Origin: Actinomycetospora sp. TBRC 11914
GTDB lineage: Bacteria > Actinomycetota > Actinomycetes > Mycobacteriales > Pseudonocardiaceae
Assembly (NCBI RefSeq): GCF_012933465.1
Contig: NZ_JABBND010000005.1
Coordinates: 124,001-188,000 of the forward strand
DNA: 64,000 bases
Direction: 5' to 3'
Each line of letters starts with the position of its first letter. The first letter of the stretch is position 1. The notes under the pieces are model-generated. The model had not been told where the DNA came from, did no database searches, and saw only the letters and a list, made by a program, of their open reading frames with translations. A program made the translations under genes and the position numbers. Positions 34,429-36,692 of this stretch are shown here, in pieces.

Positions 34429-34606
34429 GCGGGAGCGCGTGGCGGTGAGCGGCTCGCGGGCTCGCCGGGGGTGACGCCGCCGAATGCTCCGCACCCGGAT
34501 GCCGGTGTCCGGGCCGGTCCGTCCTGGGCCGTCCGCGCCGCCGGCTCCGGCGCCCGGCCCAACTCCGCCGGGCGGCCGTGCGTCGACTTGTGCCCGGCGG
34601 GGTCGG

Positions 34607-35566
34607 GTGGTCACCCTCCGCGCCGTGGACGGAGGTGGCGCGGGTCGGGCCCACGCGCTGGGCCGGGTCATCGCGATGGTCAACGACAAGGGCGGGGTCG
34701 GGAAGACCTCGTTGGTCGCGAACCTGGCCGGCCAGCTCGCGGCGGCCGACTACCGCTGCCTGGTGGTCGACCTCAACCGCCAGGCCAACCTCGCCGACGA
34801 CCTCGGCTACCGCGACGACGAGGACGACGACCAGGGCGCGGGCCTCGTGCTCTCGATCCTCACCGAGAGCCCGCTGACCCCCGTCGAGGACGTGCGCCCG
34901 GGCCTCGACGTCGTACCCGGCGGCGCCCGCCTCGCCGACCTCGTCCCGCTGATGGTGTCGCGGCTGCAGGAGCGCGGCCGCGCGGCGTTCGACGTCCTCG
35001 CCGAGGTCCTGGCGCCGACCGCGGAGCCCTACGACGTCGTGTTCGTCGACTGCCCGCCCGAGTCGACGATCCTCACCGACCTCGCGCTGACGGCCGCCCG
35101 CTGGATCGTCATGCCGACCAAGTCCGACGTCGGCGGGCTCGTCGGGATGCGGCTGGTCGCCGAGCGCTTCGCCGTCGCGCGCGAGCGCAACCCCGACCTC
35201 GCGCTCCTCGGCGCCGTCCTCTTCGCGACGGGGACCCGCTCGCGGCGCGTGCACGCCGAGCTCCGCGGGGCGGTGGCGGCGGCGTTCGGCGGGCACTCGC
35301 CGCTGTTCGCCACGGTCATCCGGCACGCCGAGCGCAGCGCCCAGGACGCGCGGCGGCTGGGCCGGCTCGCCCACGAGCTCGAGCTCGAGGTGGCCGCGCA
35401 GCCCGCGTGGTGGGCCTCGCTGCGGGCCGGCAGCACCGCCACCCCCCGCCTGTCGACGGCCGCGGCCGGGGTCGCGGCCGACTACCGCGACCTCGGCGTC
35501 GAGCTGCTGACGCTGCTGCGCGCCGCCGAGGAGTCCACCACCGGTCGCGACGTGGAGGCCATGTGA
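34607..35566 (+). CDS. ParA/MinD-like positioning ATPase
   Basis: A 319-aa ATPase. The deviant Walker A KGGVGKT is at residues 28-34 with signature Lys28, followed by VVDLNRQANL and VFVDCPPES (Walker B), then PTKSDVGG. These are hallmarks of ParA-type ATPases that pattern on the nucleoid to partition plasmids or position protein cargo. The start is uncertain: GTG 34607 has a GGCGGGG site, while ATG 34484 would add a 41-residue Pro-rich leader. The stop overlaps the next gene by 4 nt. The two downstream genes are not parB, so a chromosome or plasmid partition role is unlikely; cargo positioning is inferred. Confidence 0.85.
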   Translation: MVTLRAVDGGGAGRAHALGRVIAMVNDKGGVGKTSLVANLAGQLAAADYRCLVVDLNRQANLADDLGYRDDEDDDQGAGLVLSILTESPLTPVEDVRPGLDVVPGGARLADLVPLMVSRLQERGRAAFDVLAEVLAPTAEPYDVVFVDCPPESTILTDLALTAARWIVMPTKSDVGGLVGMRLVAERFAVARERNPDLALLGAVLFATGTRSRRVHAELRGAVAAAFGGHSPLFATVIRHAERSAQDARRLGRLAHELELEVAAQPAWWASLRAGSTATPRLSTAAAGVAADYRDLGVELLTLLRAAEESTTGRDVEAM

Positions 35567-36171
35567 CGATCCAGGACCTCAGCCACGCCTTCGGGCAGCC
35601 GGCGACGGCGAGCCTGCGGGGCCTGCTCCCCCACCGCGACGGCGGGGACCGCACCGACCGCACGGTGCCCGCACCACGCGAGCCGGAGGACGACCCCCGC
35701 GACGACGACGGTGCCGGGGCGGCCGCCGAGCCTGCCCGCGAGGAGGCTCCCGAGCCGACCCTCGAGGGTGACGACGAGCCCGAGGAGGAGCGCCCGAGGA
35801 CCCGCGCCCGCCGGTCCCCGGACGCGGCGCCGGCCCGACGCCGCAGCATCGCCCGCGTCGCCGGTCGCGACCAGGTCGACCTCCTGGTCCTGCTCGCCCT
35901 GCGGCAGGGCCCGACGGACGGGCGAGGCGTGATCACGCGGGTCCGGGAGAGCAGCGACGGGCACCTGGACGCCCCCGAACGCACGGTGCACGTCACGCTG
36001 CACCGCCTCACCCGCAACCGGTTGCTCGGCCGCCGGCCCGACCCGCGGTCGGGCCGGCAGTTCTACGCTCTGACCGAGGCGGGCGAGCGGTCGATCCGCG
36101 CCCGACTGCGGGAGTGGCAGGCACTCACCCGCGGCGTGGAGGCCGTCGCCCGGCGAGGAGGCGCGGTGTGA
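35563..36171 (+). CDS. Acidic linker plus winged-helix (PadR-like) protein
   Basis: A 202-aa protein. Residues 1-95 are disordered and strongly acidic (runs of Glu, Asp and Pro). Residues about 100-190 form a winged helix: [19 protein letters not shown], then [16 protein letters not shown] and [16 protein letters not shown], which fits the PadR fold. It could be a regulator of the trio or, given the ParA gene coupled upstream, a DNA-binding or adaptor partner stimulating that ATPase. Start GTG 35563 shares GTGA with the parA stop, and its own stop shares GTGA with the gvp gene. Confidence 0.72.
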
Positions 36172-36560
36172 CGGTCGCACGGGGCCCGCAGTCGGGCGGC
36201 GTCCGCAGGTCCCCGCAGGGCGGGCTCGCGGAGGTCCTCGACCTCGTCCTGGACAAGGGCCTGGTCATCGACGCGTTCGTGAAGGTCTCGGTGGTCGGCA
36301 TCGAGATCCTCACCATCGACGCCCGCATCGTGGTGGCGAGCGTCGACACCTACCTGCGGTTCGCCGAGGCCACCAACCGGTTGGACCTGCACGCGAAGGG
36401 CGGCAAGCCCCTCGACGAGTTCGTCGGCAGCATGACCGAGAACACGATGCACGGCGCAGCCAAGGGGATCACCAAGGGCGCGCTCGACGCGGTGCACGAG
36501 ACGTGGCGCGAGGTCCGCGGGAAGGACGAGCCGCGGCGTCGTCGTCGGAGGCGCTCCTGA
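36168..36560 (+). CDS. Gas vesicle structural protein, GvpA/GvpJ family
   Basis: A 130-aa protein. Residues about 19-78 carry the conserved GvpA core: [36 protein letters not shown] and [15 protein letters not shown]-terminal extension of about 50 residues ends in a run of Arg, as in some GvpJ/S-type minor shell proteins. GvpA makes the ribs of gas vesicles, but no other gvp gene (F/L, G, K, N) is in this window, so it may be a remnant, a dispersed member or a repurposed shell protein. GTG 36168 has a GAGGAGG site and a 4-nt overlap with the winged-helix gene. Confidence 0.88.
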
Positions 36561-36588: not shown

Positions 36589-36692
36589 CGGTTGATCATG
36601 CCGAGTGCACCGCAGGCCGGGCTCGGGCGCGAGGGGCACAAGGGGCAGGCCAGACCGGCCCCGCGCCTGCCTTATGTGCCCCTGATCAACCG
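36589..36692. terminator. Imperfect long inverted repeat between convergent genes
   Basis: The right arm, 36665-36692, pairs with a split left arm: CGGTTGATCA at 36589-36598 and AGGGGCACA...GGGCAGGC at 36632-36650, interrupted by about 33 nt. It lies between the convergent gvp gene and the DUF1636 gene, so a bidirectional terminator is the simplest reading. The interruption could be a small insertion into an older perfect hairpin. Confidence 0.6.

Follow-up and report, generated by a model that had tools for sequence, protein, structure and literature searches.

A ParA ATPase, a PadR-ended adaptor and an orphan GvpA in one Actinomycetospora operon: a candidate positioning module for gas vesicles

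Introduction

What might a ParA-type ATPase be doing in one operon with a gas-vesicle shell protein? ATPases of the ParA/MinD kind position plasmids, chromosomes, chemotaxis arrays and carboxysomes. In the available portions of the papers concerned, positioning of an organelle by such ATPases is described for carboxysomes (PMC13052382, PMC10241942), and the partner proteins are described as contacting the ATPase through an N-terminal, often basic, peptide (PMC12204374).

We analyzed the window, a stretch of 64,000 nucleotides (contig C45) from the 6.5 Mb assembly of Actinomycetospora sp. TBRC 11914, which is G000 in our genome comparison. Its three genes of interest resemble a machine for plasmid segregation that has been put to another use, with a ParA motor and its adaptor coupled to a gas-vesicle shell protein.

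Results

The trio consists of parA, a winged-helix adaptor gene and gvpA2, in that order on the + strand and joined by two 4-nt GTGA overlaps. At 35563-35566 the parA stop overlaps the GTG start of the adaptor gene, and at 36168-36171 the adaptor stop overlaps the GTG of gvpA. The features of the locus are as follows.

34587..34617, + strand: promoter-like block CTTG-N21-CACCCT, 7 nt before the likely parA start
34625..35566, + strand: parA, deviant Walker-A ParA ATPase of 313 aa with a GTG start at 34625 (Pfam AAA_31, 1e-25)
35563..36171, + strand: adaptor of 202 aa, with an N-terminal partner motif, a disordered acidic arm and a PadR winged helix
35575..35637, + strand: putative ParA-binding peptide, adaptor residues 5-25, containing the L-x2-3-F-G motif
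35644..35853, + strand: disordered arm, adaptor residues 28-97, whose most acidic 30-aa stretch has a net charge of -13
35866..36162, + strand: PadR/LmrR-type winged helix with a long C-terminal helix (block pLDDT 88-97)
36168..36560, + strand: gvpA2, a GvpA shell-protein paralogue of an orphan class (Pfam, NCBIfam, tree)
36522..36557, + strand: basic C-terminal tail of GvpA2, 12 residues, net +6
36632..36683, no strand assigned: possible terminator, an inverted repeat with 19-nt arms, 84% complementary, between the trio and the opposing gene

An earlier note on this DNA had described an overlapping trio made up of a deviant-Walker ParA with KGGVGKT, a protein with a long acidic disordered arm plus a winged helix, and a GvpA core protein. 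That description holds throughout: the overlapping trio is confirmed by sequence, Pfam and NCBIfam, the ATPase by its AAA_31 match, the second protein by its PadR match, its acidic counts and the low model confidence of its arm, and the third by the Pfam Gas_vesicle domain and the NCBIfam GvpA model. KGGVGKT is invariant among six aligned ParAs, and the window protein has both the Walker A motif and the ParA-type domain that define ParA/MinD ATPases. It is 78-81% identical to five ParAs that adjoin gvp clusters, and its top PDB sequence matches carry the annotations ParA family protein and Soj.

The same 4-nt overlap of the ParA-PadR pair was found in nine cluster-linked congeners. In the usable comparisons dN was below dS for all three trio genes, with ratios of about 0.3 to 0.4 (dN/dS of 0.14/0.47 for parA and 0.34/0.83 for the adaptor gene, both against A. 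endophytica, and 0.21-0.24/0.54-0.76 for GvpA in four usable comparisons out of seven), and purifying selection is therefore indicated for all three. Because the pair recurs with the same overlap and dN lies below dS in every gene, we regard the trio as more than a chance arrangement.

The promoter-like block is largely confined to parA. In 777,948 strand-bases from 20 sources (the window and 19 loci), CTTG-N19-22-CACCCT occurred 12 times, and 11 of these occurrences lay just upstream of parA, namely in the window, in nine Actinomycetospora loci and in one Pseudonocardia locus; the remaining match falls within an SRPBCC gene. The parA start had previously been placed at 34607. The gene is where it was said to be, but GTG 34625 is the likelier start and is preferred here because 34607 falls inside this block, which is conserved in relatives. 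As judged from the sequence, the parA transcript would be nearly leaderless. A promoter common to parA and the main gvp clusters was considered and rejected, since across the 20 sources the block stands at parA and not at gvp-cluster starts.

We found no shared palindrome and no ATGT-ACAT site, which we take to be the PadR site, in the 500 nt upstream of parA in 17 sequences. Centromere-like repeats, which a DNA cargo requires and a protein cargo does not, were likewise absent from these 500 nt in the 17 sequences. A shared operator or centromere by parA was also sought and none was found, the 10-mers common to 8 of 10 Actinomycetospora surrounding the parA start itself. In the window, an inverted repeat at 34558-34607 (16-nt arms, 88%) overlaps the promoter-like block, and the stretch GGCGCCCGGCCCAACTC, just before this repeat, is common to the window and A. 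endophytica and is a candidate autoregulatory operator.

The C-terminal part of the adaptor has the hallmark of PadR regulators, a winged helix with a long C-terminal helix, according to Pfam, the structure model and the PDB match alike. Pfam PadR matches residues 109-179 at 5e-8, and the best PDB match of the winged helix is LmrR 4zzd (E 1.5e-6). The arm that precedes it has 17 D/E and 4 K/R at residues 41-80 and a pLDDT of about 55, a low model confidence that we read as disorder. In acidity the arms show a weak contrast (p about 0.02 to 0.03), to which A. endophytica is an exception. That the protein is a plain PadR repressor, the finding that the earlier note had named as telling against its idea, is not what we observed: its N-terminus is conserved and of the partner type, its arm is long, and the adaptor reads, by its sequence, as a ParB-like protein with a swapped DNA-binding domain.

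Likeness between the adaptor N-terminus and those of ParA partners had been raised before and was indeed seen, L-x2-3-F-G being common to partners of the ribbon-helix-helix (RHH) type. The partner gene lies directly 3' of parA, and contact with ParA is putative for both types. Counting each pair once, the pattern, which was picked after the alignment had been inspected, is present in 26 of 30 PadR-side pairs (12/12 Actinomycetospora and 14/18 Pseudonocardia). In the first set it lay within the first 32 residues of 15/16 PadR-type and 6/6 close RHH-type partners versus 0/7 partners of distant ParAs, and in a named set it was present in 27 of 30 partners (7/7 RHH-type, 20/23 PadR-side); the rate in shuffled sequences was 0.0044 per sequence. 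Both aligned subsets, A2 with 19 PadR-type and A3 with 7 RHH-type partners, conserve L, F and G without exception. Four of the 18 Pseudonocardia pairs are without the motif (G218, G286, G278 and G292); G218 and G292 are gvp-adjacent, and a usable partner start is absent near parA in G286, G278 and G292.

A motif HMM built from 12 PadR-type N-termini and tested on 13 RHH-side and 4 held-out PadR-type partners gave weak evidence, with one clear match (G165, 1e-7), while among the matches listed the others were no better than the best shuffles (0.05). At the level of sequence, the pattern counts and invariant columns are the better evidence. Profile comparison of the N-terminal blocks yielded an E of 2e-10 and is circular for the motif because its blocks were chosen by it. 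Since other ParA/MinD partners, in the available part of PMC12204374, contact the ATPase via an N-terminal peptide, we read the adaptor motif, by analogy, as a probable ParA-contact site.

The nearest outgroup ParAs, 56-66% identical to that of the window (G009, G165, G150, G066, G166 and G097), have a downstream partner of another kind. An AlphaFold model of one such partner (L171, same contig as G165) has two beta-alpha-alpha units, at residues 87-137 and 165-204, as in tandem RHH proteins, with a mean pLDDT of 70. Its best structural match was to F-plasmid relaxosome chains, presumably including TraY, a tandem RHH protein; this match was weak (E 0.03), and none was found at 0.001 or better. 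Pfam RHH_1 stayed below cut-off on the RHH-side partners, and a PDB profile search gave weak O-methyltransferase matches only. The RHH fold of the outgroup partners is thus a predicted one, taken from the model and the weak relaxosome match. Three of the RHH-partnered ParAs (G066, G166 and G097) are encoded on second contigs whose lengths, 200-376 kb, are in the plasmid range. At loci L171-L177, plasmid-type ParA partners with an N-terminal L-x3-F-G follow parA; those scanned fell under Pfam cut-offs, and together they seem to be a ParB-like family that has been little catalogued.

ParAs with a PadR partner group together in the ParA tree (88/80), with the RHH-partnered lineages outside this group, and the window ParA has the A. 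endophytica ParA as its sister (100/97). The simplest history would be a single replacement of the DNA-binding domain with the N-terminus retained. Because the tree was midpoint-rooted and flagged for long branches, the direction of this change, from RHH to PadR, is one that we infer.

We also asked of the whole genome what the earlier note had asked of the window, where it had seen no other gvp gene. The window does hold a single PF00741 match, but the genome holds five: three on contig C1, one on contig C13 and the one in the window. By Pfam, the C1 cluster comprises SRPBCC, gvpA, gvpF, gvpG, gvpO, a GvpJ-like gene, gvpL, a second GvpJ-like gene (S) and gvpK, where the letters F versus L and J versus S are our own assignment. 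Accessory gvp genes are present in the genome and were not found at the trio locus, and no ParA was found in the 20 kb taken around the C1 cluster. Given this full cluster, the usual vesicle genes are present apart from the trio locus, and the suggestion of a shell protein put to a new use in the absence of a gvp cluster is not supported. The C13 gene, a second lone gvpA (L007:9535-9993), has a different tail and groups with a lone gvpA of G015 (99/92); its neighbours by Pfam are a large LuxR/AAA regulator (L007:6501-9524), which it immediately follows, and a patatin-like gene, which comes next.

A ParA with a PadR-type partner was found in 11 of 18 Actinomycetospora genomes (G000, G001, G003, G004, G006, G007, G008, G012, G014, G015 and G016). 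In nine of the ten other pair-bearing congeners a gvp cluster immediately follows the pair, with both on one strand; in G015 the gvp cluster beside the pair is cut by the contig end, and G014 has two pairs on short contigs with no gvp matches there. The second pair of G014, an uncultured Actinomycetospora (L089:1389-3120), is followed by an Amphi-Trp domain gene (PF20068, 1e-8). At L083:6934-7923, between adaptor and SRPBCC, lies a gene whose product begins GLKLALAVIGGYLLGRTKK... and has a long low-complexity tail and no Pfam match; similar ORFs occur in L080 and L081. The ParA of G009 is 61% identical and has an RHH-type partner, and that of G017 is 48% identical (45% over the tblastn segment). 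The 7 of 18 genomes without the pair each have at least one PF00741 match (G010 is 59% and G011 84% complete), and the pair is therefore not required for gvp genes to persist.

Among 62 Pseudonocardia genomes, 24 had a ParA at E<=1e-90, of which 18 were at least 68% identical. No PadR partner was found for P. kunmingensis (G278), whereas the other 17 all had one. Five of the 18 pairs have a gvp cluster at a distance of about 3 kb or less, and three arrangements occur: convergent (G218, G298 and G292), upstream on the same strand (G272) and downstream on the same strand (G275). In P. dioxanivorans (G179) the pair is 2.8 kb from a lone gvpA, and for 12 of the 18 no gvp genes were found near the pair in the stretch taken. 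Genomes with a ParA at least 68% identical had gvp genes in 17 of 18 cases versus 22 of 44 others (p=0.001), a co-occurrence that is partly a clade effect; the exception among the 18 is G233, a 90% complete MAG with the pair and no PF00741 match. Constant proximity to a complete gvp cluster, which had been put forward as evidence against a positioning mini-system, was thus seen by half, in nine of the ten congeners but in only 5 of the 18 Pseudonocardia. As for the mini-system itself, with ParA, adaptor and GvpA cargo, the tie of the ParA-PadR pair to gvp genes is borne out in relatives.

A tree of five concatenated cluster proteins from 16 congeners and G218, which is a gvp tree and not a species tree, splits the genus with 99% support into nine genomes with the pair beside the cluster versus seven others (G000, G002, G005, G009, G010, G013 and G017, with G010 only 59% complete). 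Within these seven, the host alone has the pair and alone has GvpA2, both in one operon. Joint transfer and joint retention both fit this pattern, and either ties the three genes together.

GvpA2 itself clears the GvpA family cut-off: its Gas_vesicle domain scores 1.4e-13 in Pfam, the NCBIfam GvpA model NF006872 gives 155.4 against a cut-off of 151, and the core is nearly identical to that of cluster GvpA. In the tree it groups with 11 orphan GvpAs (99/96) and not with the cluster type, and it has RRSPQG, AKGITKG and the basic tail in common with the lone gvpA products of congeners. The charge of the last 12 residues is +2 to +3 in 16 cluster GvpAs and +1 to +6 in 14 lone GvpAs, the GvpA2s of G001 and G003 being without the arginine-rich end. 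In 10 of these 11 the lone gvpA2 is found at one and the same chromosomal site, away from the gvp cluster; in A. endophytica it lies elsewhere. The class is present in 11/11 pair-bearing Actinomycetospora, the host included, versus 1/7 without the pair (p=0.0004), much of which is a clade effect; the sole bearer without the pair is G011 (84% complete). By eye, the lone gvpA2 of A. endophytica (G006, L137) adjoins genes for putative small GTP-binding and roadblock-like proteins on the opposite strand, kinds of protein that form part of actinobacterial conservons.

Discussion

We put at about an even chance the reading that the trio encodes a positioning (partition) module of the ParA type whose cargo is gas vesicles or other GvpA assemblies, in a host whose vesicles are predicted from its genes. 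Gene order, the N-terminal motif, the difference in domain, the linkage and co-occurrence with gvp genes, the orphan GvpA class and purifying selection, each read from sequence, argue for it; from these we infer that ParA is stimulated, that vesicles are bound and moved, and which domain replaced which.

In such a module ParA-ATP would coat the nucleoid, and the N-terminal peptide of the adaptor, DLSxAFG...LRGLLPxR, would dock on ParA and stimulate it. The winged helix would dimerise and/or bind DNA, for example in autoregulation, and the acidic arm would link the adaptor to the vesicle shell, perhaps via the basic tail of GvpA2, a contact at which we are guessing. GvpA2 would be a minor shell subunit supplied by the same operon, and ParA gradients would space vesicles along the nucleoid or share them out at division. 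The ancestor may have been a plasmid-type partition cassette of ParA and a tandem-RHH partner, in which PadR replaced RHH before the cassette settled beside gvp genes; in the host the cassette lies away from the main gvp cluster, with gvpA2 carried along. The fuller version, in which gas vesicles are positioned or partitioned by a ParA system of their own that arose by the RHH-to-PadR swap with the ParA-binding N-terminus kept, and that uses the basic-tailed GvpA2 as its vesicle handle, is more tentative, and we hold it at somewhat short of even.

Several observations count against vesicle positioning. The winged helix suggests DNA as the ligand, 12 of 18 Pseudonocardia pairs had no gvp gene near them in the stretch taken, G233 has the pair without a PF00741 match, two gvp-adjacent adaptors are without the motif, and 7 of 18 congeners have gvp genes without the pair.

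The alternative that survives best is that the PadR protein regulates transcription of gvp genes or gvpA2 and that ParA tunes its DNA binding, with no cargo moved. Such a regulator would suit a PadR fold closest to LmrR and a pair that, in congeners, heads the gvp cluster, but a plain PadR leaves the long arm and the RHH-partner-type N-terminus unexplained. Regulation would also suit the presence, where parA begins, of inverted repeats and the promoter-like block, yet the block is not found at gvp-cluster starts in the 20 sources, and no shared palindrome was found in the 500 nt upstream of parA; we consider this account unlikely.

It is also conceivable, though in our estimate slightly less likely still, that the pair is a chromosomal leftover of a DNA partition or nucleoid-anchoring cassette, that its gvp linkage reflects the hitch-hiking of two mobile modules, and that gvpA2 is a passenger. 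The gvp linkage in two genera and several arrangements, the co-occurrence at p=0.001, the presence of pair and GvpA2 together in the host, alone in its sampled gvp clade, and the failure to find a conserved repeat in the 500 nt upstream of parA all weigh against this history, whereas the three RHH-partnered ParAs on plasmid-size contigs, the 12 unlinked Pseudonocardia pairs and the G233 pair without gvp are what it would lead one to expect. That GvpA2 builds a non-vesicle assembly, a filament or cap, which is the ParA cargo apart from gas vesicles, is very improbable: in 10 of 11 congeners the orphan class sits at a fixed chromosomal site of its own, and its tail is mostly more basic, but its core is nearly that of cluster GvpA, above the family cut-off, and it accompanies a gvp cluster in all 10 GvpA2-bearing genomes with a mapped cluster.

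If the positioning module is what the trio encodes, such soil actinobacteria may actively control where their gas vesicles lie or how these are shared, and gas vesicles, an organelle used as an imaging agent, would gain a genetic handle for placement. The domain-swapped adaptor would then show a plasmid partition cassette turned to a protein cargo, and the N-terminal ParA-contact motif would become testable across two unrelated adaptor folds. The ParA-plus-adaptor principle is known; what would be new is the putative gas-vesicle cargo and the domain-swapped adaptor. Our literature search covered open-access work, and among the matches listed there was no report of ParA with gas vesicles. The term 'gas vesicle' is absent from the available text of PMC13052382 and PMC10241942, and ParA and partition are absent from that of a Serratia gas-vesicle paper (PMC4982088).

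Of known systems, McdAB is described in the available parts of PMC12204374 and PMC13052382 as a ParA-type ATPase with a small partner, whose N-terminal peptide contacts the ATPase, and with a protein organelle as its cargo. The trio resembles it in its ATPase and partner, and would do so in its putative ParA-contact peptide and proposed vesicle cargo. It differs in that its pair is linked, in relatives, to gvp genes and that its partner ends in a PadR winged helix. The plasmid-type ParAs with RHH partners of Pseudonocardiaceae and Streptosporangiaceae share with it a ParA 56-66% identical and an L-x3-F-G N-terminus, but the C-terminal half of their partner is modelled as two beta-alpha-alpha units, whereas the trio adaptor is modelled as a PadR winged helix. 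AspA has a PadR-like fold, and it is by this fold that we liken it to the adaptor. In the available part of PMC9178275, AspA is the centromere-binding partner in the ParA-ParB-AspA system of pNOB8 from Sulfolobus; in contrast to the trio, this is an archaeal three-part DNA partition system without GvpA. Finally, the gvp clusters of actinobacteria share with the trio a GvpA protein and, in congeners, a pair within the cluster neighbourhood, whereas here ParA, the adaptor and one GvpA make up a stand-alone operon away from the cluster.
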